This document shows positions 4,559 through 23,031 of a stretch of DNA of 23,031 nt, piece after piece. Each line of letters opens with the position of its first letter. Positions within the stretch are counted from its first letter, which is position 1. The position numbers were made by a program, and so were the translations under genes. Source of the stretch: a virus; IMG/VR virus record IMGVR_UViG_3300033150_000399, positions 1 through 23,031 of that record; one strand, 5' to 3'. Below the pieces are notes generated by a model. The model saw only the letters and a program-made list of their open reading frames with translations. It did no database searches and was not told the DNA's origin.

Positions 4559-4853
4559 TGAATGGGGCAAAGATATTGAGTTTTTATTACAAAGACAAAA
4601 GGCGGGAAAGCCGACACCGGCACTGGAAAACATGCCGAAGCTTTTCGATGATTTGGCTTATGTCTGGGAAGCATTTTGGAAACTGCATGCCAGAAGGCAA
4701 TATGGATTTGGGCCCTGCCCAATTACAGTCACTGACATTATAGAATTTGCAAGGATTTACGAAGTTCCTAAGCCGGTAGAATTTTTCGATTATATTTCGG
4801 CAATGGATAATGAATGGTTGAAATGGTATGGCGACACTAAGAGTAGCGATTGA
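4533..4853 (+). CDS. Frameshift extension of tail assembly chaperone (gpGT-like T part)
   Basis: This is not an independent gene: there is no start codon near its beginning. After the -1 shift the frame is open from CTG at 4533 to a TGA at 4851-4853, giving 106 further residues (LISCLKWQLEWGKDIEFLLQ at the start, then NMPKLFDDLAYVWEAFWKLH and an ITVTDIIEFARIYEVPKPVEFFDYI segment). The full fusion is 240 residues. In lambda the equivalent T domain binds tail tube subunits while the G part binds the tape measure, and I infer the same division here. The tape measure start (4828) lies inside this frame. Confidence 0.85.
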   Translation: MISCLKWQLEWGKDIEFLLQRQKAGKPTPALENMPKLFDDLAYVWEAFWKLHARRQYGFGPCPITVTDIIEFARIYEVPKPVEFFDYISAMDNEWLKWYGDTKSSD

Positions 4854-6835
4854 TGCAAGGCAGGCTAAGATTGGGGCGCGTGATTTCAACAGAGCCACCG
4901 CCAGTATGAAAACAAGCGCTGGTTCAGCGACTATAGCTATTGAGCGGGGGTTTTCAAAGGCCATGCGGCGAATATTATACGTTCAAGAAATTCATTGATG
5001 CGGCTTCGGATGCAGAGGAAACGATGAACAAATTCAATGTCGTTTTCGGCAAGAATGCGATCGAGGCTTCTAAGTGGGCTGAAACGTTCGCAGAAAAGGT
5101 GGGACGAAGCAAATATAGAGTTAAGGAGTGGATGGCGAGTGTTCAGGATTTGTTTGTTCCTTTGGGCTTTGCCCGCGATGAGGCTACGGAGCTTTCAAAA
5201 TCACTTGTAAAATTGGCGGTTGATGTTGGTAGCTTTCAAAACAAGGCTGATGCTGATGTTATCAGAAGCTTTACGAGCGCTCTTGTCGGCAATCATGATG
5301 CAGTTCGCAATTATGGAATTGTAATAAGTGAGACTGCTCTTAGTCAGGAGGTTTTGAATCAAAATCTTGGCAAGGCATACAAAGACCTTACAGACCTGGA
5401 AAAGGTCCAGCTTAGATATTCTCTTTTGTTAAAGGGAAGTACAGATGCTATTGGTGATGCTGAGAGGACGGCAAATTCTTATGCAAGTCAGGTAAAGAGA
5501 CTGAATTCAAATTTACACGATACAGCCGTTGAGCTTGGTGATGATTTTCTTGGTGCAATGACCAAAGTTGTAAGGTCGATTAACGAAAATAAGGATACAT
5601 GGGGATGGTTTATTGAAACTCTTGGCGAAGGACTGGCAGAGATTGCTTCCGGATTCAAGGAATTACGTGAAACGATAAATGATTTTCAGCCCGTATATGA
5701 TAACTGGCTCAGGCAGCAGGAAAAACAAAAAAGAATAGCAAGACCAGCCCCGGGTGCTTTCGGTGGATTCGGAGCAGGTACTATGGGTGCTCCGCCTATT
5801 GGAGCTACTGAAAAACAACTTCCTGTCGGAAGGCTTGAAATATCACCGAGAGGCTATCAACGGTTGGCAGAAATGAGAGCAAGACTTAAAGAGATGGAAG
5901 AAGAAGCCAAAAGAAATGCTTTCATCGGACCACCGAAACCACTGGAACGTGATATTAAAAGACAAATTCAAAAAGAGGTCGAACTGAGTATTGAGGCCCA
6001 GCATAAAATTTACGAGGATGCCCGAGAGCAAATAGAACGAGTCCGGCATATGGACTATCTGACCAGACAGGAAAAGATACAAAATCTAAAGGATTATCAG
6101 CAGGCACACGCAGAAACACTGTCCAAGGTAGAAGAAGCAGAGAAGGCATTGCATGAAGAAATATTAGCTTACCAGCATTCAAGGGCTGATGCAATGGAAG
6201 CCTATTTCACACAAATGCGAGAAAACTATCAGGATTTTAATTTATATTTGTCAGAAAAATTTGCGGATACGGCAATGTCTATTGAGGATTCTATGGCTAA
6301 TGCCTTTGATTCAATGATTTCCGAAGGAGAAAGCTTTAAGGACGCAATGACTGACTTTGCCAGAGATGTTGGCAGGGCATTTTCGAGAATGGCCGCGGAG
6401 ATGGCGGCTCAGCTTGCTATGCTGGCAATAATGCAGGGATTTGGCGGTTTATTCAGAACGCCTAATTTGAGTCTGACAGGCCCTACAAATGCAGGAGTGC
6501 CGCCGGCGCTTGGAATGGGCGGAGTTTTGGAAAGAGGTCGAATAATGCCTATGGCGAGCGGAGCGGTTCTCGACAGACCCACTTATTTCCCTATGGCTAA
6601 TGGAGATATTGGTCTGGCTGGCGAGGCCGGACCAGAGCTTGGTTTCTTTCCGCTGAAAAGACAGGGCGGAAAGCTCGGCATAGAGGCATCAGGGCAGCAG
6701 CCGATTAACGTGCAGCCGACCCCGGTTAAGGTGGTGTTTGTTCGTAATCATAGAGAGGCTACTATCGAAGCAATGAGAGGAGAGGAAGGTCAGGCTGTAA
6801 TTATTAACACGCTCAGAGATAATGGTATATTATAA
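4828..6835 (+). CDS. Tape measure protein, with apparent frame break near the N-terminus
   Basis: The most likely start is ATG 4828, inside the chaperone extension: it opens MATLRVAIDARQAKIGARDF, a common tape-measure N-terminus, and runs in frame 1 to a TGA at 4996. The main body is in frame 2 (FKKFIDAASDAEETMNKFNVVFG onward) to 6835. Both frames are open between about 4937 and 4998; dropping one base near 4975-4980 joins them as RRILTFKKFID. The joined product is near 668 residues. Body features: helical region with VQDLFVPLGFARDEATELSK and an NSYASQVKRLNSNLHDTAVELGDDF block, a coiled-coil stretch at about 330-430, and the lambda-gpH-like end (PTYFPMANGDIGLAGEAGPELGFFPL). It sets tail length and enters the cell membrane during DNA delivery. 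The alternative TTG at 4940 lacks a ribosome site and would delete the N-terminus. Confidence 0.85.
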
Positions 6836-8064
6836 TGGCTTATAAAACAGGAAAAGCTAACGGACACAAGGAAATGCTGCTGGCATTGAAGGGCTTTCTA
6901 TGCAATGCAAAGAAGGCTTATAACTGCCAGGCGGGTTCTAATACGGGCAATGGCTTTGTCTCTGCCGAAAGGGTCAGCACGTCGCCTGTCGATGAGACAT
7001 GGAATCTAACGGCAACGTCGGCTACCAATTTTACTGTAACAGGTTCGGTTTCAGGTTCTCAGTCAGATGCTACTGTAGGAACACCTTACGATAATGGCAT
7101 TGTGGCATTTACAATCATTCAGGGGACAACGGATTTTGCTTCTGGTGACAGCTTTACTTTCGATGTGGCCGATGGTCTTGGTTCTACTGAAAAATGGACG
7201 GTCAAATCCTGGAATACCGATTGGGATGGCAATGGTGAATATGAATTGATACTTATGGCGCCAGGGACTTCCGGAACAGATGAGATTTATGTCGGGATTC
7301 AGACCTATAAAGACGTCGGCGATGATTACTACAACTGGCGACTGCAGGGATATACCGGATATTCATCACAGGCGAGTTTTCACACACAGCCTGGAGCAAT
7401 TCCGGACTCTTCGAGCGACCGCATACCTTCGGTTTTGTTGTGGGATTCGGAGCTTGATTACTGGCTTGTTGCCAACGGAAGGCGTTATGTTCTGGTGGTC
7501 AAAGTATCAACTGTTTACGAATTTGCTTACCAGGGATTTCTGCTGCCGTATGGTTTGCCTAATCAAATACCATATCCGATTGCTGTCGGTGGCACATCTC
7601 CGGCACAATATTCATACCAGAAGCGATGGAGTAGCATTGATGACAAACACGCTGCTTTTTGGGATGGAAGGGGTGGACCTTCTCACGCAACATTGAAAAT
7701 CCTGCATGGAAGCTGGCACGGAGTAAATAACCGGAGCAGCGATGAGTATTATGGCGATGATGTAAATGGTATCAATGTCTGGCCCTATATGCACAGTGAT
7801 TACAGATACTCAGATTATTATGGAAATCATTGGTTCGACCTTTTGCAGATGAATATAGACGGCAGTTATCCATTGTTTCCACTTGTTGTTTGTGGTGATG
7901 AACCGAATAAAAATTTTTACGGTGAAATTCAAGGTTTGTTTGCCTTGCCAGGCGAACAGCTTGCCTCCGAGGACAAAATAACAATTAGCGGAACAGATTA
8001 TATCGTTTTCGGCAATTGTTTCCGCACCGGAACGAACGATTATGTAGCTCTGAAATTGGAGTGA
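6835..8064 (+). CDS. Tail-associated virion protein, paralogue 1
   Basis: A 409-residue protein whose ATG overlaps the tape measure stop (TAATG). It opens MAYKTGKANGHKEMLLALKGFL, matching the start of the next gene (MAYQTGTSTGPDDLLDKLRTFL), so the two are diverged paralogues. Residues about 35-160 form a beta-rich insertion. The segment NWRLQGYTGYSSQASFHTQPG and YWLVANGRRYVLVVKVSTVYEFAYQGFLLPYGLPNQIPYP resembles a virion protein family I have seen in siphophage tail clusters between the tape measure and distal tail genes; I cannot name it firmly. It probably belongs to the tail tip. The C-terminus is a domain with EQLASEDKITISGTDYIVFGNCF. Confidence 0.75.
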   Translation: MAYKTGKANGHKEMLLALKGFLCNAKKAYNCQAGSNTGNGFVSAERVSTSPVDETWNLTATSATNFTVTGSVSGSQSDATVGTPYDNGIVAFTIIQGTTDFASGDSFTFDVADGLGSTEKWTVKSWNTDWDGNGEYELILMAPGTSGTDEIYVGIQTYKDVGDDYYNWRLQGYTGYSSQASFHTQPGAIPDSSSDRIPSVLLWDSELDYWLVANGRRYVLVVKVSTVYEFAYQGFLLPYGLPNQIPYPIAVGGTSPAQYSYQKRWSSIDDKHAAFWDGRGGPSHATLKILHGSWHGVNNRSSDEYYGDDVNGINVWPYMHSDYRYSDYYGNHWFDLLQMNIDGSYPLFPLVVCGDEPNKNFYGEIQGLFALPGEQLASEDKITISGTDYIVFGNCFRTGTNDYVALKLE

Positions 8065-8071
8065 TTTTTAT

Positions 8072-9127
8072 ATGGCTTATCAGACAGGAACATCTACGGG
8101 CCCGGACGATCTGCTGGACAAGCTTAGAACGTTTTTAAGTTCAAACGGCTGGACTATAAACGAATGGTCTGATGAAAGCTCGATGTACGAATCATGGAGC
8201 GGCCTTAACGGTTCGGGTAAGAGGCTTCACGTTCAAAAAACGGCGGGCGATTCGACAGTTATGTATTTCAATTTCAGAAGCGTCAACAGAGGCGTTGTTT
8301 TCGAGGACCACAGTACAGACAGTAGCATAGAAAGTTATGGAAAATATAAGGCGGAGATTACAGGCATTGCTCTTAATGGTTCGACAGGATACAGCGCTTC
8401 AAATAACTGGGACAAGCAGCCCGGATACATGCAGAGCAGCGATGGGAGCTGGGGTGTTTGTATGACTGAATTGTCTCTTACCGCCATACCAGCTTATTAC
8501 TTTTTTCAGGACGGCGATACTGTTATTGTATGCGTGGAATATCAGAGCGGAAAATTTCAATGGTTGGCCTTCGGTCTTTTGGAAAAGCAGGGAACGATAA
8601 CAGGCGGGCAGTTTTTGGCCGGTTCTGTAAATTGTTATGACCCCAGCGAACAAATACTTAATCCAGGCAATTATTTGTCTATGTTTTTTGCTAAAGGTTA
8701 TTCTGCTTTCGGTAATGGGGCTGTTTATTTAGATGCAGACAGTTCGGCTGCATGGCGTTCATCGGGATATATGGGGAGCAATAGCGGAGATACTCATGCC
8801 CAGGACATTCAATTTCCTGGATTGCCTGCAAATAGAGAGACTCCTTCATGGAATGATTCAAATACGATTAACAGCTTTTTTATCACACGAGCGCCGAACC
8901 ATTACAACGGACTTGCGCCAATGGTTCCGCTTTATGTTCTCTGCAAAAGGTCGAACGGCAACTATTCTCTGCTCGGCTGGCCGAAAAGTATCCGAATGCT
9001 TAACTGCTATTACTACGATCCGGCAGAGGAATACAATTTGGGTTCGGACGTCTGGAAAATATTTCCCCAACATAGCAAAGATGATAAAGGCAATATGATG
9101 GGCTTCGCGGTCAAGAAAGTCACTTAA
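8072..9127 (+). CDS. Tail-associated virion protein, paralogue 2
   Basis: A 351-residue protein 7 bases after paralogue 1. The first 35 residues align with that protein (TGxxxGxxxLLxxLxxFL), then the sequence departs: a beta-rich section with KRLHVQKTAGDSTVMYFNFRS and a middle block containing YYFFQDGDTVIVCVEYQSGKFQWLAFGLLEKQG. The ending FPQHSKDDKGNMMGFAVKKVT is strand-like. Gene duplication followed by divergence is the simplest explanation. Presumably a tail tip or fibre-anchoring protein, inferred only from location between tape measure and distal tail genes. Confidence 0.75.
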   Translation: MAYQTGTSTGPDDLLDKLRTFLSSNGWTINEWSDESSMYESWSGLNGSGKRLHVQKTAGDSTVMYFNFRSVNRGVVFEDHSTDSSIESYGKYKAEITGIALNGSTGYSASNNWDKQPGYMQSSDGSWGVCMTELSLTAIPAYYFFQDGDTVIVCVEYQSGKFQWLAFGLLEKQGTITGGQFLAGSVNCYDPSEQILNPGNYLSMFFAKGYSAFGNGAVYLDADSSAAWRSSGYMGSNSGDTHAQDIQFPGLPANRETPSWNDSNTINSFFITRAPNHYNGLAPMVPLYVLCKRSNGNYSLLGWPKSIRMLNCYYYDPAEEYNLGSDVWKIFPQHSKDDKGNMMGFAVKKVT

Positions 9128-15299: not shown

Positions 15300-15328
15300 T
15301 TGACAAAACATATTTTCATGCGTATATT
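15300..15328 (+). promoter_or_regulatory. Consensus sigma70-like promoter for the early operon
   Basis: The -35 hexamer TTGACA (15300-15305) is perfect. A 17-base spacer leads to TATATT (15323-15328), a good -10. Transcription should start near 15335 and read rightward into the small membrane peptide and the early genes. It is the clearest promoter in the window. Confidence 0.8.
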
Positions 15329-15362
15329 ATATTAGAAAGTTAATAAAGAATAAACAAAACTT

Positions 15363-15379
15363 AAAGGGTAGCAGAAATG
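15363..15379 (+). promoter_or_regulatory. Initiation cassette copy 1 (AAAGGGTAGCAGAAATG)
   Basis: An extended ribosome-binding cassette of the form GAAAGGGTAGCA(A/G)(G/A)ATG. The AAAGG part pairs with the 16S anti-Shine-Dalgarno; the constant GTAGC part is not explained by it. Confidence 0.7.
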
Positions 15380-15511
15380 GAAATTACAATATTTATAACA
15401 GTGGTAAGTGTCTATCTGATAATAGCTTACACACGCAAACCTAAACCAAATCAACAAGTCAAATGGCTCAAAAAATCCATAAATACAGGTGACAGCCGTT
15501 GGCTTGTCTGA
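15377..15511 (+). CDS. 44-residue single-pass membrane peptide
   Basis: The ATG is preceded by AAAGGGTAGCAGAA (15363-15376), the shared initiation cassette. Residues 1-18 are hydrophobic (MEITIFITVVSVYLIIAY), followed by a basic, hydrophilic tail (TRKPKPNQQVKWLKKS) ending SRWLV. This gives an inserted N-terminal helix with a positively charged cytoplasmic end. It is the first gene after the consensus promoter. The function is unknown; small membrane peptides near phage control regions sometimes inhibit lysis, secretion or superinfection, but nothing in the sequence decides that. Confidence 0.7.
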   Translation: MEITIFITVVSVYLIIAYTRKPKPNQQVKWLKKSINTGDSRWLV

Positions 15512-15841
15512 GTTCTTTAATCTTTGAAAAGTTAATAGGATGCTTGGGCGGTTACAAGGGCAACGCCCATGATAAGACAGGTGAGCCGGTAGGGTCAAGG
15601 CACTCCGTGAAAATCTGATGTAAATGCCGTGAACAGTCGGGACGATTAAGTCACGCAACTTTTACGCAAATCAGATTTTCAGGTTTAGCTAATCACCGTC
15701 AAGCGAGGTTAAAAACTCGTAGCCCCGAAATCTGATATGTACGTGCTTGGGACAAGTGACACGGTCAGGTCACGATTGAATCTGGCAACGTTAGCTTGTT
15801 GGTCAGTGACGGCATAGCGGTAAGTGACAAAATGACGTTTC
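15512..15841 (+). ncRNA. Candidate structured RNA region between peptide gene and tRNA-like element
   Basis: No reading frame here is supported. Helices: TGGGCG(G)TT with AACGCCCA (15545-15569, one bulge); a 12-pair stem TGAAAATCTGAT (15608-15619) with ATCAGATTTTCA (15670-15681); inside it GTAAA with TTTAC and TGCCGTGA with TCACGCA; GTGAC (15756-15760) with GTCAC (15769-15773). A third copy, AAATCTGAT at 15728-15736, could pair with 15670-15678 in place of the first, giving two mutually exclusive folds. Direct partial repeats (TGCTTGGG at 15541 and 15743; AATCTGAT to GTCACG, 38 and 40 bases) suggest an ancestral duplication. The class is unknown. A DNA role such as an origin or operator array is also possible. 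Confidence 0.5.
15608..15681 (+). repeat. Long hairpin, 12-pair outer stem with two inner stems
   Basis: The outer arms TGAAAATCTGAT and ATCAGATTTTCA are perfect inverted repeats 50 bases apart. The inner parts pair as GTAAA/TTTAC (15620-15624/15661-15665) and TG-C-CGTGA/TCACGCA (15625-15632/15651-15657, one bulged base). About 24 pairs in 74 bases is far above chance. Confidence 0.8.
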
Positions 15842-15904
15842 GCTCTGGTGATTTGGACGCCGCTTCTTTTTGAGCGGAGTCGGGTTCGAGTCCCGAACAG
15901 AGCA
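15842..15904 (+). tRNA. tRNA-like element without D-stem (degenerate tRNA or tRNA mimic)
   Basis: 63 bases fold as acceptor GCTCTG/CAGAGC (6 pairs, seventh position G-A mismatch), anticodon-type stem CCGCT/AGCGG with an 8-base loop TCTTTTTG, and a perfect T-arm TCGGG-TTCGAGT-CCCGA with the canonical TTCRANY loop, then discriminator A. Only 11 bases join the acceptor and anticodon stems, so there is no D-stem, and the variable region is two bases. The loop leaves the anticodon uncertain (TTT possible). It may be a decayed tRNA, a minimal tRNA mimic or a processing signal. CCA is not encoded. Confidence 0.5.
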
Positions 15905-15924
15905 TTAGAGCAATGGTGCTCAAT
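15905..15924 (+). other. Short hairpin after the tRNA-like element
   Basis: GAGCA (15908-15912) pairs with TGCTC across an ATGG loop, followed by AATTTT. The stem is only five pairs; it could be a weak terminator or a processing site before the next gene. Confidence 0.3.
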
Positions 15925-15949
15925 TTTGAAAGGGTAGCAAGATGTCAAA
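15924..15949 (+). promoter_or_regulatory. Initiation cassette copy 2, start of the 26-base direct repeat
   Basis: Bases 15928-15944 read GAAAGGGTAGCAAGATG. The 26 bases 15924-15949 recur exactly at 16261-16286, including TTTT before and TCAAA after the start. Confidence 0.8.
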
Positions 15950-16199
15950 GAGGAACCAAAACAAAACACAAAACTACGTGACAATGCCGGACTTTCGGGA
16001 AGGTGTTTGTCTTAACAATCAGACAGTCGGCAATCTGAAAAAATACCTGCGGAAGTTTCCGAACGATGCAAGGGTTGTTATCACCAGCACGGACAGCGAA
16101 GGCAATTACAGAAACTTTGATTGCAAGATTGCCTGCAATTTCGAGCATCAGTTCAAAACCAATACGGTTCAGTTAATTCTCGGTTTCATAAAAGACTGA
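15942..16199 (+). CDS. Small early phage protein, unknown
   Basis: An 85-residue protein starting with MSKRNQNKTQNYVTMPDFRE. The pattern VGNLKKYLRKFPNDARVVITSTDSEGNY is common in small phage or plasmid proteins, where a Leu-rich helix is followed by PxDAxV and a strand with a Gly turn; I do not know its function. The ATG has the initiation cassette, and the CDS is followed by a GNRA-loop hairpin at 16209. It is the first gene after the structured region. The start is well supported by the cassette. Confidence 0.75.
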   Translation: MSKRNQNKTQNYVTMPDFREGVCLNNQTVGNLKKYLRKFPNDARVVITSTDSEGNYRNFDCKIACNFEHQFKTNTVQLILGFIKD

Positions 16200-16208
16200 C
16201 AGGCCGAA

Positions 16209-16226
16209 ACGCGCCGCAAGGCGCGT
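16209..16226 (+). terminator. Compact GNRA-capped hairpin, terminator or attenuator
   Basis: ACGCGCC, loop GCAA, GGCGCGT: seven perfect pairs with a stable GNRA tetraloop, followed by CTGTGTTTT. It lies between the 85-residue gene and the DUF6166-like gene, so it may lower transcription of later genes or protect the upstream message. Confidence 0.6.
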
Positions 16227-16260
16227 CTGTGTTTTATGAACATACTGACGAGGCCAAATT

Positions 16261-16286
16261 TTTTGAAAGGGTAGCAAGATGTCAAA
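16261..16286 (+). promoter_or_regulatory. Initiation cassette copy 3, second copy of the 26-base repeat
   Basis: It is identical to 15924-15949, running from four T through GAAAGGGTAGCAAG and the ATG to TCAAA. The exact identity over 26 bases, including start-codon context, implies recent duplication or strong constraint. Confidence 0.8.
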
Positions 16287-16668
16287 TAAATGGAATTACG
16301 AAGCAGTAAGAACGGCGGACGGCGTAAAGGCGTTCGTGGTCGTCCAGAATGGCGGGGATGTCACGATGCGGACGCCCCTGCCTCATATTTTTAAGCACAG
16401 CCCAACAGGATTCGAGTTCGGGTACGGTGGATCCGGCCCGGCAGACTTGGCTCTCTCAATTCTAACTCACTGGTTCATGTCATACAAGTTCCCGAAGCCC
16501 GAGGCAATGAATGAGGCGAGCAAGCATTATCAGAATTTCAAGTGGACGTTCATCGCTCCATGCAAAGAACAAAGATTCTGCATCGGCGATAGGGTTATCG
16601 AGGAATGGTGGGTCGAGCAGGAAGAAGCCAGGGAGAAGGAATTGGCGGCAATGAAAGGGGGTGTCTGA
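16279..16668 (+). CDS. DUF6166-like protein
   Basis: A 129-residue protein. The motif FEFGYGGSGPADLALSILTHW (residues about 47-67) is the defining block of DUF6166 proteins from phages and bacteria: a Gly-Ser-Gly-Pro turn and a long Leu/Ala helix. FKWTFIAPCKEQRF and a C-terminal charged helix (EEWWVEQEEAREKELAAMKG) follow. The biochemical role of the family is not established. It starts from an initiation cassette identical over 26 bases to that of the preceding gene, and overlaps the GTG of the next gene. Confidence 0.8.
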   Translation: MSNKWNYEAVRTADGVKAFVVVQNGGDVTMRTPLPHIFKHSPTGFEFGYGGSGPADLALSILTHWFMSYKFPKPEAMNEASKHYQNFKWTFIAPCKEQRFCIGDRVIEEWWVEQEEAREKELAAMKGGV

Positions 16669-16912
16669 TTTGTATAATTGTGCCAATACAATAAATTGGA
16701 AGCAGGCAATACTGATGCAGATAAATGTTATTGTTGCGCCTCGAAGAGCAAAAACATTTAAGCTAAAAGAGTTGTATGCTTTTGAAGAAACGCTGAGGGA
16801 ATTGTTCCCGTCTAACAAAAACATCAAGGCCAAAATAAGGCAGGTATTGCAGCAGCTTAGAGACGAAGGAGTTGTTGAGTTTCTTGGTGATGGGCAATAC
16901 AAAAAGCTCTGA
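16661..16912 (+). CDS. Stand-alone winged-helix protein of DpnI/DRP C-terminal type
   Basis: Up to 83 residues. The start is uncertain: GTG 16661 overlaps the previous stop, while TTG 16670 lies 8 bases after AAAGGGGG (16654-16661) and has better spacing. Residues about 33-83 (FKLKELYAFEETLRELFPSN, then KAKIRQVLQQLRDEGVVEFLGDGQYKKL) match the C-terminal winged helix of DpnI and Dam-replacing endonucleases: the helix LYAFExxL, then KIRQ-LQxLRD-G-xEF and a wing. In DpnI this domain reads methylated GATC. No nuclease domain is present, so it may be a DNA-binding regulator or decoy; that is inference. Methyl preference is not proven. Confidence 0.75.
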   Translation: MSDLYNCANTINWKQAILMQINVIVAPRRAKTFKLKELYAFEETLRELFPSNKNIKAKIRQVLQQLRDEGVVEFLGDGQYKKL

Positions 16913-16942
16913 AATGGCATTTGAGAAAGGAGAAAGACAATT

Positions 16943-17611
16943 ATGAAATTATTGACAAAAGAAATCAGGAAGATACTGCCGCCTATACACGGGCAGGAAA
17001 ATCTTGGAGAGGACGCAGTTATTTACTGCAAATTCTTTACTCCGGACTCAAGCTGGACATGGTATGTAACCGAAGGTAGCCCGATTAAAGACGAGTCCGG
17101 CAAGGAAATCGACTTTGAGTTCTACGGTCTGGTTGACGGCTTCGAACAGGAATACGGATACTTTAATCTGTCCGAGCTTGAAAGAGTGACAGGACCAATG
17201 GGTCTGCATATCGAACGCGATATTTGGTGGAAGCCGATGACTGTGAGGGAGATCCGCAGGAGCATCAACGGCCTGCCGCCTGAGCCGGATAATCTTGACC
17301 CCGGCGAGCCACTGGTTTACGAACCGGCAGAGCAGCAAGAAAACGAAACGATTAAGGCGGTCAGGGAGCTCGTCAATTCACTCAAAGGCAGAGAATTAGA
17401 AATTGAGTCCGAATGCGGTGAAAAAGTTATGATGCAAATCAGGGACACTGATAACGACACCAGCAAATACGGCAAGTTTCTCGTACCGGAATGGTGTAAG
17501 TGCAAACAAAGCAAGTTCCTCTGCTACCCTGAAGATGGTGTATGCCATTGTGGTGTTTATAAGCACCACGTGCATTGCGCCAAGTGCGGCGGTGTGAGTC
17601 AGGTTGGTTGA
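16943..17611 (+). CDS. DUF2958-like protein with zinc-binding tail
   Basis: A 222-residue protein, start ATG with AGAAAGGAG upstream. The N-terminal domain is DUF2958-like: MKLLTKEIRKILPPIHGQEN, FFTPDSSWTWYVTEG, then FYGLVDGFEQEYGYFNLSEL and IERDIWWKPMTVREI, which match the usual Lys/Phe, WTWYxxE, FGLVxGxExELGYFxLxEL and ERDxxxxPxTL blocks. The family is common on plasmids and phages beside anti-restriction and replication genes; its activity is unknown. A Glu/Pro-rich linker (about 118-140) leads to a C-terminal set WCKCKQSKFLC, VCHCGVYKHHVHCAKC, which looks like a metal-binding finger. This extra tail is not in the minimal family. The following 78 bases hold two hairpins. Confidence 0.8.
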   Translation: MKLLTKEIRKILPPIHGQENLGEDAVIYCKFFTPDSSWTWYVTEGSPIKDESGKEIDFEFYGLVDGFEQEYGYFNLSELERVTGPMGLHIERDIWWKPMTVREIRRSINGLPPEPDNLDPGEPLVYEPAEQQENETIKAVRELVNSLKGRELEIESECGEKVMMQIRDTDNDTSKYGKFLVPEWCKCKQSKFLCYPEDGVCHCGVYKHHVHCAKCGGVSQVG

Positions 17612-17620
17612 TTGCCTTCC

Positions 17621-17671
17621 TGGGTGGGTGCAATTCCCACCCACCGCCTTAGCTCCCACAGGTGGAGCCAA
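17621..17671 (+). other. Two consecutive hairpins after the DUF2958-like gene
   Basis: TGGGTGGG (17621-17628) pairs with CCCACCCA (17636-17643) across TGCAATT, a loop resembling a T-loop. Then GCTCC (17653-17657) pairs with GGAGC across CACAGGT. No T tract follows, so a simple terminator is doubtful. The pair could stabilise or process the mRNA. Confidence 0.5.
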
Positions 17672-17716
17672 ACTTATAACCTGTTTTAAATGAGTAATTC
17701 AAAAAGGAGAATTAGA

Positions 17717-17884
17717 ATGACTAAAACACAAACACAAAAGGAAATCAAAGACGAAGATTCTAAATGTCTTAGATGCGGTGGTACTATTAAGTATGGAAAA
17801 AGGGCAAGAATAAATAGGCTTGGAATTAAATATGTCCTCGGCAAGTGCAGGGATTGTGGAACAAAATGGGAATTGTATGGATAA
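17717..17884 (+). CDS. Small zinc-ribbon protein
   Basis: A 55-residue protein. I choose ATG 17717 because AAGGAG (17704-17709) lies 7 bases before it; the longer frame from 17690 has no site. Two Cys pairs, CLRCGG (residues 17-22) and CRDCG (43-47), separated by a strand and helix, form a zinc ribbon of the kind used in small transcription or nucleic-acid-binding proteins. The N-terminus is Lys/Gln/Asp-rich (MTKTQTQKEIKDEDSK). It stands between the hairpins and the next cassette-started gene. The function is not known. Confidence 0.7.
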   Translation: MTKTQTQKEIKDEDSKCLRCGGTIKYGKRARINRLGIKYVLGKCRDCGTKWELYG

Positions 17885-17925
17885 AAGATTTCGTCAGATA
17901 AGGAGACATTTTTCAATCTATTTAT

Positions 17926-17942
17926 GAAAGGGTAAAACAATG
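17926..17942 (+). promoter_or_regulatory. Initiation cassette copy 4, variant
   Basis: GAAAGGGTAAAACAATG: the GAAAGGGTA part is kept but GC is replaced by AA, so the site is a diverged copy. Confidence 0.6.
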
Positions 17943-18131
17943 GCAAAAGAAAACGTTCAAACTGCAAAGCTCAAGGAAACGAAGCAATGCAAACACAGTG
18001 TAAGGTTCGACGACGATTCGGGCGAGCCGAGGGTGCTGAGCTCGGTTTACTTGCTCAGGCCGGCGTATGTGGCTCTTGGCGAACCAAAGGAAATCGAAAT
18101 CACAATAAAAAGCCCCGGTACCAAAGGGTAG
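17940..18131 (+). CDS. Small phage protein, KHSVRFDDD-type
   Basis: A 63-residue protein. The pattern KETKQCKHSVRFDDDSGE, then SSVYLLRPAYVALGEPKEIEITI, recurs in short phage and actinobacterial proteins in which Lys-Glu-Thr-Lys is followed by an R-F/Y strand, a SxYxxK/R block and a last strand. The biological role is unknown. The stop codon is formed by the TAG of a further GAAAGGGTAGC-like motif (AAA GGG TAG), so the end of this gene and the motif share bases. Confidence 0.65.
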   Translation: MAKENVQTAKLKETKQCKHSVRFDDDSGEPRVLSSVYLLRPAYVALGEPKEIEITIKSPGTKG

Positions 18132-18150
18132 CAAAGAAAAAGTACCGAGG
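18113..18150 (+). other. Hairpin with orphan initiation motif in the loop
   Basis: CCCCGGTAC (18113-18121) pairs with GTACCGAGG (18142-18150), eight of nine positions. The loop contains AAAGGGTAGCAAAG (18123-18136), which has no ATG at the usual distance. It may be a decayed start, or a copy bound by a regulator rather than a ribosome. Confidence 0.5.
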
Positions 18151-18197
18151 CATATAAAGGTAATGAATGATAACACAAATGAAAGGAGATTGTCAAT

Positions 18198-19208
18198 ATG
18201 GCACACGAAATAGAAATAAACGAAAATGGTGAGGCCCGGGCGTTCTATGCTGGCAAAGCACCATGGCACGGACTCGGCACTATGGTCGAGAAGGAAGTTA
18301 CTGCGGCGGCTGCTATTAAACTGGCAGGGCTGGACTGGGTTGTCGAGAAAAGGCCATTGTTTGCTCAGAGCATCGAAAACGACTCAATCGGTTACTGCGA
18401 AATCGACACACACAAGGCAGTAGTCAGAGCCGAGGATAACAAAATACTCGGCATTGTGACCGATGCTTATGAACCTATCCAGAACGAGGACTTATTCGAG
18501 TTCATGGAAGCGCTGGTCGGTGATAACGTAACGATGTTCCACTGTGCTGGTAGCTTGTTCGGCGGCAAGCGGGTTTTCATTACCTGTAAAATGCCGAAAA
18601 GTATTGAGGTAGGTCCTGATAAGGTGGATATGTATCTGGTGGCCTGTTCGAGTCACGACGGCTCAATGCAGTTTCATATCAAGTGGACGCCGATCAGGGT
18701 GGTCTGCTGGAATACGGTGTCTGCCGCTTTTCAGATTTACGGCGGCAGGGTCAGGGCTACCGATACTATGAGTATATTGCATCGCGGCGGCTGGAAGAAC
18801 AAGCTCCAGGAAGCGAGAAAGGTTCTCGAATTGAGCGAGATTTATCAGGCACAGGCTCAAAAACGATTCGAGTGGCTTCGCAAGCAAAAGATGAAAACGC
18901 CGGAGTTCAAGGCGTTCGCCGAACAGATGTGGCCGGACGAGGAAAAGGACGATGGAAAAATCATCGACCGGAGCAAGCTACGAGATGCGGTCAGGCAACT
19001 CTATCATCACGGAGTCGGCAACGAAGTCAATGGTGTAAAAGGTACGAGATGGGCGGCGCTTAACGCTGTGACTGAATACATCGACCATCATCGGACATAC
19101 TCAAAGGGAAAGTATGGTGATGTTTCGGACAACAGAATGAACAGCGTTGTATGGGGCAGCGGTGCCAATATCAAAAAGAAGGCACTCGAATTGCTTAGCG
19201 TTTCATAG
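18198..19208 (+). CDS. DUF932 / TIGR03299-like phage-plasmid protein
   Basis: A 336-residue protein from ATG 18198, with GAAAGGAG upstream. Family blocks are clear: FYAGKAPWHGLGTMVEKEVT, LDWVVEKRPLF, KAVVRAEDNKILGIVTDAYEPIQNEDLFEF, GSLFGGKRVFITCKMPKSIEVG, DMYLVACSSHDGSMQFHIKWTPIRVVCWNTVSAA. The C-terminal third is the usual helical part with a TEYIDHHRTYSKGKYGD region. Length is normal for the family. The family is widespread on plasmids and phages; its role is not firmly known and replication or DNA metabolism has been proposed. A terminator hairpin follows about 90 bases later, so it probably ends a transcription unit. Confidence 0.9.
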   Translation: MAHEIEINENGEARAFYAGKAPWHGLGTMVEKEVTAAAAIKLAGLDWVVEKRPLFAQSIENDSIGYCEIDTHKAVVRAEDNKILGIVTDAYEPIQNEDLFEFMEALVGDNVTMFHCAGSLFGGKRVFITCKMPKSIEVGPDKVDMYLVACSSHDGSMQFHIKWTPIRVVCWNTVSAAFQIYGGRVRATDTMSILHRGGWKNKLQEARKVLELSEIYQAQAQKRFEWLRKQKMKTPEFKAFAEQMWPDEEKDDGKIIDRSKLRDAVRQLYHHGVGNEVNGVKGTRWAALNAVTEYIDHHRTYSKGKYGDVSDNRMNSVVWGSGANIKKKALELLSVS

Positions 19209-19298
19209 GCTTAAAATGCTCATGTGAAAGCTACTATCCTATACCAGATTGAATTTTGAGGCTGTCACAGGATTTCTACGAACGCAAATTATTATCTT

Positions 19299-19336
19299 AA
19301 AGAGCGGGGGCATAATAGTTCCCGCTCTTTTTATTA
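19299..19336 (+). terminator. Rho-independent terminator
   Basis: AAAGAGCGGG (19299-19308) pairs with CCCGCTCTTT (19321-19330), ten perfect pairs over a 12-base loop, followed by TTATT. It lies downstream of the DUF932 gene and upstream of the next cassette-started gene. Confidence 0.8.
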
Positions 19337-19353
19337 GAAAGGGTAGCGGTATG
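19337..19353 (+). promoter_or_regulatory. Initiation cassette copy 6
   Basis: GAAAGGGTAGCGGTATG, directly after the terminator. It decides the start of the next gene at 19351; the longer frame from 19249 would run through the terminator stem. Confidence 0.7.
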
Positions 19354-19602
19354 GCAATCGCAATGATAGAAAGCTTGGAATCTCTGAAAAGATTAGGAAG
19401 CAGGCCGGAAGGCGTTGAATGTTTCATTATGCTTAATAGCGGATTGCGAAGCTCGAAGTTTATAAATATGGTTGGCAATTCTTTTTATGTTTTTAACGAT
19501 ATAGACGACAGCGAGCAATATTTGTCGGAAGAAGAAATCATGAACGAACAGTTTAACCTTATAGGTGAAGCAATAAAAAAAGGTGCACTGTTTGCTTATT
19601 AA
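19351..19602 (+). CDS. Small phage-plasmid protein, RSSKFI-type
   Basis: An 83-residue protein. The pattern CFIMLNSGLRSSKFINMVGNSFYVFNDIDDSEQYLSEEEI and the end NLIGEAIKKGAL match a small uncharacterised family on mobile elements in which RSSK-I is followed by a F-V-x-N/H-x-ID block, a Glu-rich stretch and an AIxxGAL end. Its role is unknown. The start is fixed by the initiation cassette at 19337. The frame upstream of 19351 is only a run-through. Confidence 0.7.
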   Translation: MAIAMIESLESLKRLGSRPEGVECFIMLNSGLRSSKFINMVGNSFYVFNDIDDSEQYLSEEEIMNEQFNLIGEAIKKGALFAY

Positions 19603-19608
19603 GAAAGG

Positions 19609-19625
19609 AAAGGGGTAGCAGAATG
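19609..19625 (+). promoter_or_regulatory. Initiation cassette copy 7
   Basis: AAAGGGGTAGCAGAATG, with one extra G relative to the consensus. It begins 7 bases after the previous stop and is followed by TCAAA like copies 2 and 3. Confidence 0.65.
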
Positions 19626-19826
19626 TCAAACGAAAAAATGTTACTAAACAAGGCAAACGTTCGGAAATACATCTTGAGAAGGCAGAAGGAAATCCGCAAG
19701 GGCTGGGAATTTTCTTATGTCGGTTCTAAGGTGTATGACGACCTTAACGAAAGAGTTCGGAAAATCATTGATGGTTCACTCAAACGTCATCCGAGCAAAG
19801 GCAAAACGTTTATACAGATAATGTAG
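19623..19826 (+). CDS. Small basic protein, possibly histone-fold-like
   Basis: A 67-residue basic, helical protein. ANVRKYILRRQKEIRKGWEF, then VGSKVYDDLNERVRKIIDGSLKRHPSKGKTF, recalls small bacterial proteins with a helix, a turn and a longer helix followed by HPSxGKT. The pattern is compatible with a single histone-fold-like or other DNA-binding module, but no motif proves that. It starts 20 bases after the preceding stop and precedes the 210-residue protein by 13 bases. Confidence 0.65.
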   Translation: MSNEKMLLNKANVRKYILRRQKEIRKGWEFSYVGSKVYDDLNERVRKIIDGSLKRHPSKGKTFIQIM

Positions 19827-19839
19827 AAAGGTTCATAAA

Positions 19840-20472
19840 ATGCACAAGGCAGTAATACTTTTAGTGAAGGCAAAAGACAAATTTGAGGCCAAAGAAAAGG
19901 CCGACGAGTTCCTTGATGCTTACGGCGAAGGCAGGGTATTTGATTGGTATCAAATTGGCGGAAGATGGACGGGGGCATTGAATCCCAAATATAAAGAGTT
20001 CCTCCAAAAAGCAGATGAAATCCTGAAAAAACATCCATCTAATAAAAGTAATGAGTATGGTTTTTTAACACAGGAGTCGGTGGATGATAATAAGGATATA
20101 TTACAGGATGTATGGGAACAGATGGGACAAACCGGTCCTAATCCATATTACAGCCAATATGAGCTTCCGGATAAAGGTGGCGATTATGACATTATGCCGC
20201 TTAAAGATTGCATATCTGTTGTCAGAGAATGGCAACAAGACAATGTTTTATGTGGCGATGAAATAATGAAAGAGGCCGAAGAATTGTATGGAAAGAACAG
20301 CAAGAATGGATTTAATCCAAAGATTTACGGGTATGAACTAAAAAGAGCAGGTGACTTATATTGCCAAAATTTTAGCTTCGATACGAATTTGTTTAACACA
20401 GAAACAGACGATTACGAATTGCCAGAAAAAACAGAAGGCTATTTTGCTGTATTGGTTGATATGCACGTATAA
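19840..20472 (+). CDS. Unknown phage protein with WYQIGGRWTG motif
   Basis: A 210-residue protein, ATG after GAAAGG. The N-terminus KAVILLVKAKDKFEAKEKADEF is a small alpha/beta unit. RVFDWYQIGGRWTGALNPKY (residues about 31-51) recurs in uncharacterised proteins of phages and some bacteria as a W-Y/F-x-IGGRW-(S/T)G core. The middle is helical (EWQQDNVLCGDEIMKEAEEL), and the end KTEGYFAVLVDMHV is a strand. I do not know the reaction or partner. The conserved Gly-Gly-Arg-Trp suggests a ligand-binding turn; this is inference. Confidence 0.75.
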   Translation: MHKAVILLVKAKDKFEAKEKADEFLDAYGEGRVFDWYQIGGRWTGALNPKYKEFLQKADEILKKHPSNKSNEYGFLTQESVDDNKDILQDVWEQMGQTGPNPYYSQYELPDKGGDYDIMPLKDCISVVREWQQDNVLCGDEIMKEAEELYGKNSKNGFNPKIYGYELKRAGDLYCQNFSFDTNLFNTETDDYELPEKTEGYFAVLVDMHV

Positions 20473-20548
20473 ACAAGTGCAGCAATTGCTGGTTTGAAGT
20501 CAAGTCAGACCTTCCGGAACACGCGATTGGCAGCAAGGAGAAAATGAA
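20473..20548 (+). other. Short intergenic spacer
   Basis: I see no gene, strong hairpin or promoter here; it ends in AAGGAG (20534-20539), which serves the next small gene. Confidence 0.5.
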
Positions 20549-20710
20549 ATGAAAGTTGTAATTAAAATTTGGGGTGGCTTTGTTCAAGAAGTAGAAAAAG
20601 ACAATGAGAATATTAAAGTTGAAGTTCACGACTATGATGTTGAAGGCTTATTGGAAGATGATTGCTCTCAAGATGAAAAAGGACGTTTATATAGCGTTCA
20701 ACAATATTAG
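20549..20710 (+). CDS. 53-residue small protein, MKVxIxxxGG-type
   Basis: A 53-residue acidic protein starting MKVVIKIWGGFVQEVEKDNE, continuing NIKVEVHDYDVEGLLEDDC and ending YSVQQY. AAGGAG lies 9 bases upstream. Short proteins with a strand, a GG-xVQxV turn, a V-x-V-x-DYD block and an acidic end occur on plasmids and phages beside DUF2958/DUF932-type genes; their function is unknown. An ATG at 20544 in another frame stops immediately and is not a start. Confidence 0.7.
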   Translation: MKVVIKIWGGFVQEVEKDNENIKVEVHDYDVEGLLEDDCSQDEKGRLYSVQQY

Positions 20711-20727
20711 GATTAGGAGAAAATCAA

Positions 20728-21369
20728 ATGGCAACATTATATGAGAAATACAGACCGAAGAAATTTGAAGAAGTTGTCGGTCAGGATGATGCCGTCAAGA
20801 AAATACAAAGGCTAATTAAGAGGCAGTGGGGTGGTAGGGCATGGTGGATAGGCGGAATGAGCGGTACGGGCAAGACAACAATTGCCCGTATCATAGCTCT
20901 CCAGGGTGCAGATGAGTTTTTTATAGAGGAATACGACAGCGGAGATAATATCAGGACTCAGGACTTAGACCGAATCGAATACACAATGCAGATACATGCG
21001 ACCGGCAAGGGGGGGCGTGCCTTCATAATTAACGAGGCTCACGGACTACCGCGGACAGCAATACGCAGGCTGCTCGGAATTCTGGAACGGATACCTAAGC
21101 ATGTTGTTTTTATCTTTACTACAACACGACTGGGAGAACGAAAACTTTTTGATGATCAGATTGATGCACATCCGCTGCTTAGCCGTTGTTGCAAAATCGA
21201 GCTTGATTATCTTTCGCTGACAGAGAAGTTTGCAAGGTATTGTCGAGATATTGCCACGAAAGAAAATCTAAACGGCAAGCCGCTCAGTGAATATATCAAA
21301 CTGGCCCAAAGGTGCAAGAGCAACTGTCGTGAAATGCTACAACGCATAGAGGCCGGCGAAATGCTGTAA
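20728..21369 (+). CDS. Minimal clamp-loader-like AAA+ ATPase
   Basis: A 213-residue protein from ATG 20728 with TTAGGAG upstream. Features: YEKYRPKKFEEVVGQDDAV start typical of RFC/DnaX clamp loaders, Walker A GMSGTGKT (residues 43-50), a Walker B-like AFIINEAH (98-105) in which the usual Asp is Asn at 102, sensor-1 TTT (131-133), and the SRC motif with arginine finger (152-154). The three-helix lid follows to the end. Cellular clamp loaders are over 320 residues and have a C-terminal collar for pentamer assembly; that part is missing. The protein probably works with a host clamp or replisome, or acts as a regulator. This is inferred; loader activity is not shown. Confidence 0.85.
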   Translation: MATLYEKYRPKKFEEVVGQDDAVKKIQRLIKRQWGGRAWWIGGMSGTGKTTIARIIALQGADEFFIEEYDSGDNIRTQDLDRIEYTMQIHATGKGGRAFIINEAHGLPRTAIRRLLGILERIPKHVVFIFTTTRLGERKLFDDQIDAHPLLSRCCKIELDYLSLTEKFARYCRDIATKENLNGKPLSEYIKLAQRCKSNCREMLQRIEAGEML

Positions 21370-21486
21370 CGACACAAAACGCCTCATTCAAAGCTACAAT
21401 TATACCATTGAAACTATTTTGATGGCTCAAATGGATTCCTATGCAAATATTTCATATAATAATATAAATAAATAAAGGGTGGCAAA
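21370..21486 (+). promoter_or_regulatory. Intergenic region with probable -10 element and cassette copy 8
   Basis: TATAAT at 21455-21460 lies 27 bases before the next ATG. The expected -35 position holds TGGATT, a poor match, so any promoter would be weak or activator-dependent. AAAGGGTGGCAAA (21474-21486), a variant cassette, directly precedes the ATG at 21487. Confidence 0.4.
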
Positions 21487-22017
21487 ATGTTAGCTTATGA
21501 AGAAACGGGAAAGTATGTCAGTGAACGTCATGCACAGGCAAAAGCAAAAGGGAAATTAACTGCAGGACAGGTTGCTAAGATTTTACGTAAAAGAGGACTG
21601 CAAATAAAAGCAAAGGAATTAAAGCGATACGCCAACGAATGGCATCACAGCGGATTCTATAAAGACTCAAGCGGCTTGAAAATGGGCAGGACTTATTTTT
21701 TCCCTGCCGACATTGATTTTGATATTCTTATTGAGCGAATTGAAAATGACCGCATAATCGGAGAACAAATTGATGAAGAAAAAAATCGTACTGCTTATAT
21801 TTTCAAGGTTGGTTTCAGAAAGGGATATGGTCGTCGCAAATGGATTCCAATTGCCAAATTCATTACAAAGGTTGTTCCGGAAAATGGAATGATACCCGAT
21901 GAAATAAGCCTGGAAGATTATGAAGCGCTTAAGCGATTCGAGGGAGAAGAGCTCGAACCTTATGAGACATTTGCTCATTTTAGGGAACGTATGGTCGGTA
22001 GAAAGGATATAAACTGA
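21487..22017 (+). CDS. Unknown protein with possible N-terminal helix-turn-helix
   Basis: A 176-residue protein. The N-terminal part LTAGQVAKILRKRGLQIKAKELKRYANEWHHSGFY (residues about 25-59) has two helices with a short turn and a Trp/His end, suggestive of a MerR-type helix-turn-helix or an RNA/DNA-binding unit, but without a clear family match. Then KMGRTYFFPADIDFDILIERI and a basic stretch FRKGYGRRKWIPIAKF. It overlaps the next gene by ATGA and seems to have its own start control (21370-21486), so the pair may be a separate functional unit. Function unknown. Confidence 0.7.
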   Translation: MLAYEETGKYVSERHAQAKAKGKLTAGQVAKILRKRGLQIKAKELKRYANEWHHSGFYKDSSGLKMGRTYFFPADIDFDILIERIENDRIIGEQIDEEKNRTAYIFKVGFRKGYGRRKWIPIAKFITKVVPENGMIPDEISLEDYEALKRFEGEELEPYETFAHFRERMVGRKDIN

Positions 22018-22425: not shown

Positions 22426-22935
22426 TTACGAAAGCCAATCATCAACAGGCAGCAATTGAATAGCAGGAGCAAGCATAGAGCTGGTGTTAGTATAATACTT
22501 TGCTGTGAGCTCAGGCGAGCTATGTTCGAGCAGGGATTGGACGGCGGTTAATGAGACACCTTTGGATTGCAGAGTTGTACTGAATACCGAGCGTAAATCG
22601 TGAAATCTCAAATTCGGCAGACCGGCACGTTCTCTTATTGCTTTCCACTTTTTGAAGGTGTTGGTGTCGCCGGCCAAAAGCCGCTCCTGCCAGTCCGGAA
22701 GCTCCGAAATATATCGAGTAAGGACTGGAATGATGGACCTATGCAATGGCCTAGCAGCCATAGACTTCCTTGTTTTCTTCGAGTGCGTCCGGATAGTATT
22801 CGTATCAAAGTCGATATCGCCGATAAGTATGTTTTCAATGTCACTGCTTCGCAGTCCAGTTGTTATGGCGAGCAGAACGCGAATGTACCAGGTTTCACTG
22901 CGAATGCGAGCTGATATGTATACCCCTACCCATTG
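22426..22935 (-). pseudogene. Tyrosine recombinase (integrase), catalytic part only, no start
   Basis: Reading on the reverse strand from after a TGA at 22936-22938, the frame gives ARIRSETWYIRVLLAITTGLRSSD, with the catalytic Arg in TGLR, then THSKKTRKS (the beta-hairpin Lys), HDLRSVFSTTL (His-x-x-Arg), LLEHSSPELTAKYYTN (His and the nucleophile Tyr). All active-site residues are present. However, there is no ATG, GTG or TTG in frame before the first Arg; the first ATG (22759-22761) lies after it. The N-terminal core-binding domain is absent and the sequence beyond 22936 does not continue it in any frame. The gene is therefore a truncated remnant or continues outside in disrupted form. It belongs at an attachment site end, as in prophages. 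Confidence 0.85.
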
Positions 22936-22988
22936 TCAAGACAGAAAACTGTTCTTTCTAAGGTAGATTTATCGCCGTGTATAAAAGC

Positions 22989-23031
22989 AGTTGGAACGGA
23001 GGGAGCCCGTAGGGCGACCGGAGTTCCAACT
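22989..23031. repeat. 43-base palindromic repeat element at the window edge
   Basis: AGTTGGAAC (22989-22997) and GTTCCAACT (23023-23031) are perfect inverted arms. Inside, GCCC (23005-23008) pairs with GGGC (23012-23015) over GTA. The interior GGAGGGAGCCCGTAGGGCGACCGGA has the look of GC-rich dispersed (REP-like) bacterial repeats. It ends exactly at the last base of the window. Confidence 0.7.

Follow-up and report, generated by a model that had tools for sequence, protein, structure and literature searches.

Start-associated sequences (SAS) are best known from the phages of Actinobacteria. In Cluster K mycobacteriophages, the 13-base SAS GGGATAGGAGCCC is found in 11-19 copies directly upstream of start codons; it contains conserved bases that are unable to pair with 16S rRNA, the host is essentially free of it and its function is unknown (PMC3203893). 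Cluster EF Microbacterium phages carry GGGAAAGGACCCC, with ten well-conserved copies at ribosome-binding-site (RBS) positions, which has been likened to SAS despite the lack of sequence homology and which has an ESAS-like element upstream of each copy (PMC7302621). A 2024 study still called the role of SAS ill-defined and interpreted the ESAS that accompany them as promoters containing inverted repeats (PMC11373665). Across the 188 Cluster K phages surveyed in 2025, SAS copy number and match to the consensus differed between subclusters, K8 having none (PMC12699233). Here, we describe a long ribosome-landing sequence, AAAGGGTAGCA, located directly 5' of the start codons of several neighbouring genes in the IMG/VR virus record IMGVR_UViG_3300033150_000399, the whole 23,031 bases of which form the window analysed. 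We consider it likely to be a start-associated ribosome-binding element that is specific to this phage lineage and whose spacer is functional.

The sequence GAAAGGGTAGCA-N2-3-ATG, or a close variant, is found at seven starts (15363, 15928, 16265, 17926, 19337, 19609 and 21474) in a rightward gene module that extends from about 15.3 to 22.4 kb, with an orphan AAAGGGTAGCA lacking a start codon at 18123-18133; this set, as given in a preliminary description of the window, is borne out. All of the start copies are on the plus strand, the distance to ATG is fixed at all seven and the gene families behind them differ. Copy 1 (AAAGGGTAGCAGAAATG, 15363-15379) opens a 44-aa leader open reading frame (ORF) conserved in two related phages, L106 and L135. 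Copies 2 (15928-15944) and 3 (16265-16281), both reading GAAAGGGTAGCAAGATG, stand at the starts of an 85-aa ORF and of the DUF6166 gene, copy 5 (GAAAGGGTAGCGGTATG, 19337-19353) at that of an 83-aa ORF and copy 6 (AAAGGGGTAGCAGAATG, 19609-19625), in which a fourth G is present, at that of a 67-aa ORF. The preliminary description had placed GTAGC in the cassette, which holds for these five copies and fails for the remaining two: the degenerate copy 4 (GAAAGGGTAAAACAATG, 17926-17942; 63-aa ORF) has no GTAGC (AAAGGGTAAAACAATG), and the variant copy 7 (AAAGGGTGGCAAAATG, 21474-21489; 176-aa ORF) has GTGGC. Copies 2 and 3 lie, as had been noticed, in identical 26-base blocks (15924-15949 and 16261-16286), and the flanks of most copies within the window are unrelated.

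Allowing up to three mismatches, GAAAGGGTAGCARRATG has seven matches in the window, all on the plus strand and within 15362-21489, compared with a mean of 0.25 and a maximum of 2 in shuffled windows. The shorter pattern AGGG(G)T(A/G)GC occurs seven times on the plus strand, always in the module (15365-21476), and once on the minus strand (17530); plus-strand counts in shuffles average 0.8 and reach 5. We then compared the orderings of A, C, G and T in the spacer, with (A/G)GG and the spacing held fixed and an ORF of 40 or more codons required: TAGC, the exact spacer of five of the seven start copies, was found five times in the window and the remaining 23 orderings five times in total. RNAduplex predicts that AAAGG pairs with the 16S tail in the motif copies and that, at four start copies (15377, 15942, 16279 and 19351), UAGC additionally pairs weakly with GCUG (a helix 45 strand). 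UAGC nevertheless ranks only 136th among the 256 tetramers for pairing with the tail. Since 135 of the 256 possible spacers would pair more strongly, 16S pairing does not explain the spacer, which must be conserved for another reason; the earlier remark that GTAGC is dispensable for the 16S match is thus upheld.

The motif is also restricted to the module. The late region of the window has no copy, as had been stated, the closest look-alike being GAAAGGGCAAGGATATG before the gene at 2942, and the late genes mostly have weak or missing Shine-Dalgarno (SD) sequences. Within the presumably early module, about half of the genes have plain SD sites, and those without the motif at 16943, 18198, 20549 and 20728 use ordinary AAGGAG/AGGAG sites. 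A strong sigma-70-type promoter (TTGACA-17-TATATT, 15300-15328, plus strand, 11/12 positions matching) heads the module and is kept at the same position in the relatives as TTGACA-17-TATAAT (L106) and TTGACA-17-TAAGAT (L135). Copy 1 alone has a good promoter close upstream, and the regions upstream of the copies show no common repeat and no shared structure, the hairpin of the orphan excepted.

Two related lineages of phages also carry the motif, in the module homologous to this one. L106 (IMGVR_UViG_3300031566_000058), the DUF932 protein of which is 81% identical to that of the window, carries the motif at four starts. One belongs to a gene at 6007, and the other three, those of the leader ORF, DUF6166 and the homologue of the 67-aa gene, are orthologous to motif-bearing starts of the window; the leader ORF has the motif in L135 too, with AGGGTAGC unchanged across the three phages. 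At the 67-aa gene, 18/18 bases (19608-19625) are identical in L106, extra G included, and the DUF6166 start reads GAAAGGGGTAGCATAATG; the flanks of both are at random level (identity over the upstream 50 nt of 0.54 and 0.56, respectively, for a random 50-mer median of 0.56). Copy 2 is identical in L106 through ATGT, although the L106 gene behind it is non-homologous. The orthologues of copy 4 in L106 and L135 are plain SD sites. L135, to which L139 and L140 are near-identical, has AAGGGTAGCACCATG at the leader ORF and AAAGGTTAGCACAATG at the next ORF. Those parts of the 50-kb L106 and 47-kb L135 phages that were fetched yielded no further copies, the whole records being scanned by exact pattern, and a scan with the 67-aa protein returned no additional relatives. 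AGAGGAGTAGCACATG also stands at the start of a DUF932 relative in a metagenome-assembled genome (MAG) that shares its order with L228, a Sedimentisphaerales MAG. For the three lineages sampled, the simplest reading of these alignments would be selection on GTAGC inside this phage group.

Terminase relatives point to Sedimentisphaerales/Planctomycetota MAGs (69% for L228 and 60% for L222 and L223). An alignment-based genome scan with DUF932 also backs this host hint, a first DUF932 scan having given nothing, and the temperate siphophage group to which the window phage belongs therefore probably has a Sedimentisphaerales host. Using 298 genomes of the inferred host class as a proxy, we found 39 matches to AAAGGGTAGCN{1,3}ATG, with at most two per genome, compared with about 93 in the reversed control. 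This rules out a host translation signal for that class; equal frequency before host genes, which would have refuted the preliminary description, was not seen in this proxy. An altered host anti-SD is likewise ruled out, the canonical tail GGATCACCTCCTTT being present in 23 of 26 genomes of the class; with such a host-type 16S and plain SD sites in the same module, the ribosome specialisation once suggested finds no support. In IMG/VR, the exact GAAAGGGTAGCANNATG is found in 103 contigs compared with 62 for a spacer-scrambled control, mostly as single copies, and the idea of a widespread phage initiation cassette was discarded. One unrelated AT-rich phage contig (L095) has an identical TAAAGAAAGGGTAGCAAAATGA at two stop-start overlaps (2511-2527 and 2863-2879).

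The element thus recurs at a fixed position relative to the start, is restricted to one module, survives across diverged flanks and is absent from the inferred host class. In the reading that we favour, AAAGGG would be the working SD core at normal spacing, fused to a conserved spacer, GUAGCA, without useful 16S rRNA pairing, so that each copy is more tightly constrained than an SD. It would mark a subset of genes in a single promoter-headed module and set or coordinate their translation, either through the sequence or accessibility of the spacer or through a putative trans-acting factor. Several points weigh against it. Two of the seven start copies keep AAAGGG yet differ in the spacer (GTAAAAC at 17926 and GTGGC at 21474), the motif is found in only three phage lineages, of which L135 has a single good copy beside a degenerate one and an orphan, the more distant terminase relatives lack the motif and the probable host is deduced via relatives rather than from the window itself.

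Could the copies simply reflect a favourable SD combined with chance, or the recent duplication of one leader? The identical 26-base blocks around copies 2 and 3, the pair of identical sites in the unrelated L095 and the modest excess of the exact motif over its scrambled control in IMG/VR all point that way. However, TAGC outnumbers each of the 23 permuted spacers in the same genome, the flanks of most copies are unrelated and the motif is conserved in another lineage despite diverged flanks, which makes this already disfavoured explanation improbable. A bipartite ribosome contact, in which AAAGG would pair with CCUUU and UAGC with GCUG in the 3' strand of 16S helix 45, appears more improbable still. 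RNAduplex does find this pairing at four of the seven start copies, approximately 1-2 kcal/mol better than SD alone, and the motif resembles the 5' strand of helix 45, ACAAGGUAGCC; yet more than half of all spacers would do better, the opening of a helix as stable and universal as helix 45 is implausible, and the same 16S sequence is widespread in hosts that do not use the motif.

Recombination deserves closer attention. The copies may be kept alike as short homologies at gene borders that serve cassette exchange, for example by a phage RecT-type annealase; their RBS role would then be ordinary, and the two readings are compatible. The slot between copies 2 and 3 holds the 85-aa ORF and a hammerhead-like RNA in the window and an unrelated 144-aa ORF in L106. 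The 50 nt upstream of the slot are 80% identical in the two phages up to the motif and ATGT, and the homology ends at the ATG, so that the motif marks the borders of an exchanged cassette, which the 26-base repeat brackets in the window. Moreover, the 83-aa gene, which lies between two copies, is absent from L106, and both L106 and L135 have a RecT/Bet-like gene. On the other hand, the four-G variant at the 67-aa gene is common to the orthologues and is not homogenised inside one genome, the leader ORF has copies without visible exchange and linkers would not require a fixed SD spacing. We regard a linker as quite possible, though not as the best explanation of the motif, and cassette exchange may help to keep the copies alike. 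A further alternative is an operator, in which a protein or RNA of the phage would act on AAAGGGUAGCA to repress or activate the gene set, with the orphan as an extra or decoy site. The conserved non-pairing spacer does overlap the ribosome footprint, and the orphan sits in the 20-nt loop of a plus-strand hairpin (18112-18151) that overlaps the stop codon of the 63-aa ORF, 5' of DUF932. This hairpin, with nine pairs and one mismatch (stem GCC-CGGUAC/GUACCG-GGC), has a predicted energy of -13.1 kcal/mol (z -3.2) that none of 200 shuffles equals, and an orphan (AAGGGTAGC) also occupies this gap 5' of DUF932 in L135. But the L135 orphan is outside any loop, neither L106 nor L135 preserves the hairpin and the other copies have no common structure. 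The annotated products have no RNA-binding domain, and our family search of them gave no candidate for a cognate binding protein of the RegA or coat-protein operator type. The best complementary RNA in the module (17501-17540, CTGCTACCCT, in the DUF2958 gene) reaches -17.3 kcal/mol; as shuffled motifs reach -18.7 kcal/mol, it is not significant. No phage protein or RNA binding the motif, as envisaged in the preliminary description, was found here, the only long complement in the module (at 17523, in the same DUF2958 gene) behaving like shuffles, and we judge an operator to be unlikely. A more novel reading would be a phage-encoded, motif-binding regulator that coordinates the whole module post-transcriptionally through AAAGGGUAGCA, with the hairpin orphan as sensor or decoy; this we hold to be doubtful, the position and hairpin of the orphan being the sole hint of a non-RBS role.

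Other features of the locus should be mentioned. A terminator-like hairpin with a T run (19299-19331, z -5.4) lies immediately 5' of copy 5, and comparable hairpins are found 3' of DUF932 in L106 and L135, so read-through may be needed for the downstream motif-bearing genes. The 67-aa basic protein (19623-19823), conserved in the three phages, has a weak likeness to DUF1931 (PDB entry 9qt0, E 0.089) and is possibly a phage histone-fold protein; its structure model is poor (pLDDT 59.5). In L106 (9208-10210), its homologue has an in-frame stop in place of the tryptophan codon of the window, and the reading frame of the clamp loader is disrupted about 35 codons in, with an HNH-endonuclease-like ORF behind it. 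The RecT/Bet-like recombinase of the L106 phage (L218, 4599-6506, minus strand) carries about 320 inserted residues, intein-like at their ends, that are missing from the L135 homologue.

Several RNA-like folds also occur in these phages. A type II hammerhead-ribozyme-like RNA (16202-16259, plus strand), with an intact core (CUGACGA, GAAAC and GUC), scores 28.7 bits against Rfam RF02276 (E 0.038), short of the gathering score of 37. Its predicted cleavage follows 16227, 38 nt before copy 3, and it is absent from the corresponding L106 position; hammerheads near integrases in prophages are already known (PMC3088659). A non-coding stretch conserved between the window (about 15700-15905) and L106 (about 5460-5650), and not seen in L135, ends in a tRNA-like fold that lacks a normal D arm, in which GCTCTGGTGATTTGGACG is identical and GGTTCGAGTCC is T-arm-like. 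The anticodon loop of an L106 tRNA gene (5898-5974), located just 5' of a motif copy, has eight bases, and ARAGORN calls the anticodon 'taga', which makes this tRNA a possible four-base decoder. Finally, a tRNA-Sec-like fold overlaps the 3' end of DUF2958 in the window (17588-17648), L106 (about 7655-7715) and L135 (about 4640-4700), with a sub-threshold Rfam score of 26.9 bits, and the three phages also share the stretch that follows it, with conservation of CCACCGCCTTAGC...GCAGGTG.

Elsewhere, the window holds the last part of a siphophage structural region, with tape measure and phrog_1101 tail proteins. Two adjacent genes (6835-8064 and 8072-9127) each match the structural protein family phrog_687 and are likely to be a tandem duplication. 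The module that follows the structural region encodes DUF6166, DUF2958, DUF932, a clamp-loader ATPase and small ORFs, and the window has an integrase-like end 3' of it. The integrase-like gene (22426-23031, minus strand) is apparently interrupted near 22915, and two 20-base arms at 22989-23008 and 23012-23031 form an inverted repeat at the end of the record, which together suggest an insertion or assembly junction.

How, then, does the motif compare with the described systems? Like the Cluster K SAS, it is a short asymmetric multi-copy sequence directly before start codons, mostly outside the structural genes, that joins an SD core to strongly conserved bases without a 16S partner and is virtually absent from the host, judged here on the proxy class. 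In both, orphans are rare, the stop codon of the upstream gene can fall inside the element, and different gene families retain it in related phages, here at four starts in L106 and one or two in L135, before orthologous and non-orthologous genes. The plain SD sites of the module (AAAGGAG, AAGGAG and AGGAG) share the AAAGG core and the start spacing, without the conserved GTAGCA spacer and without being repeated as long blocks. The present motif differs from the Cluster K SAS in its unrelated sequence, the phylum of its host and its lower copy number (seven plus the orphan in the window, four in L106 and one to three in L135, compared with 11-19), and it has no ESAS inverted repeat or promoter attached; nor was an ESAS-like element of the kind known from Cluster EF found upstream of its copies. 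Reading GAAAGGGTAGCA, it matches neither the Cluster K nor the Cluster EF consensus and is not SAS proper: it is analogous to SAS, not homologous, and stands to it as the EF motif does, alike in anatomy and not in sequence. Its lineage-limited spread is comparable to the subcluster variation of the Cluster K SAS. Were a motif-binding regulator involved after all, the motif and the actinophage SAS would be independent inventions of the same regulatory logic. SAS have been on record in phages of Actinobacteria since 2011, still without a known function, and the present case is independent, comes from another phylum and has clean in-genome controls in its plain-SD neighbours and hairpin orphan. 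The same anatomy with an unrelated sequence suggests repeated selection for SD-plus-spacer start elements in phage gene modules.

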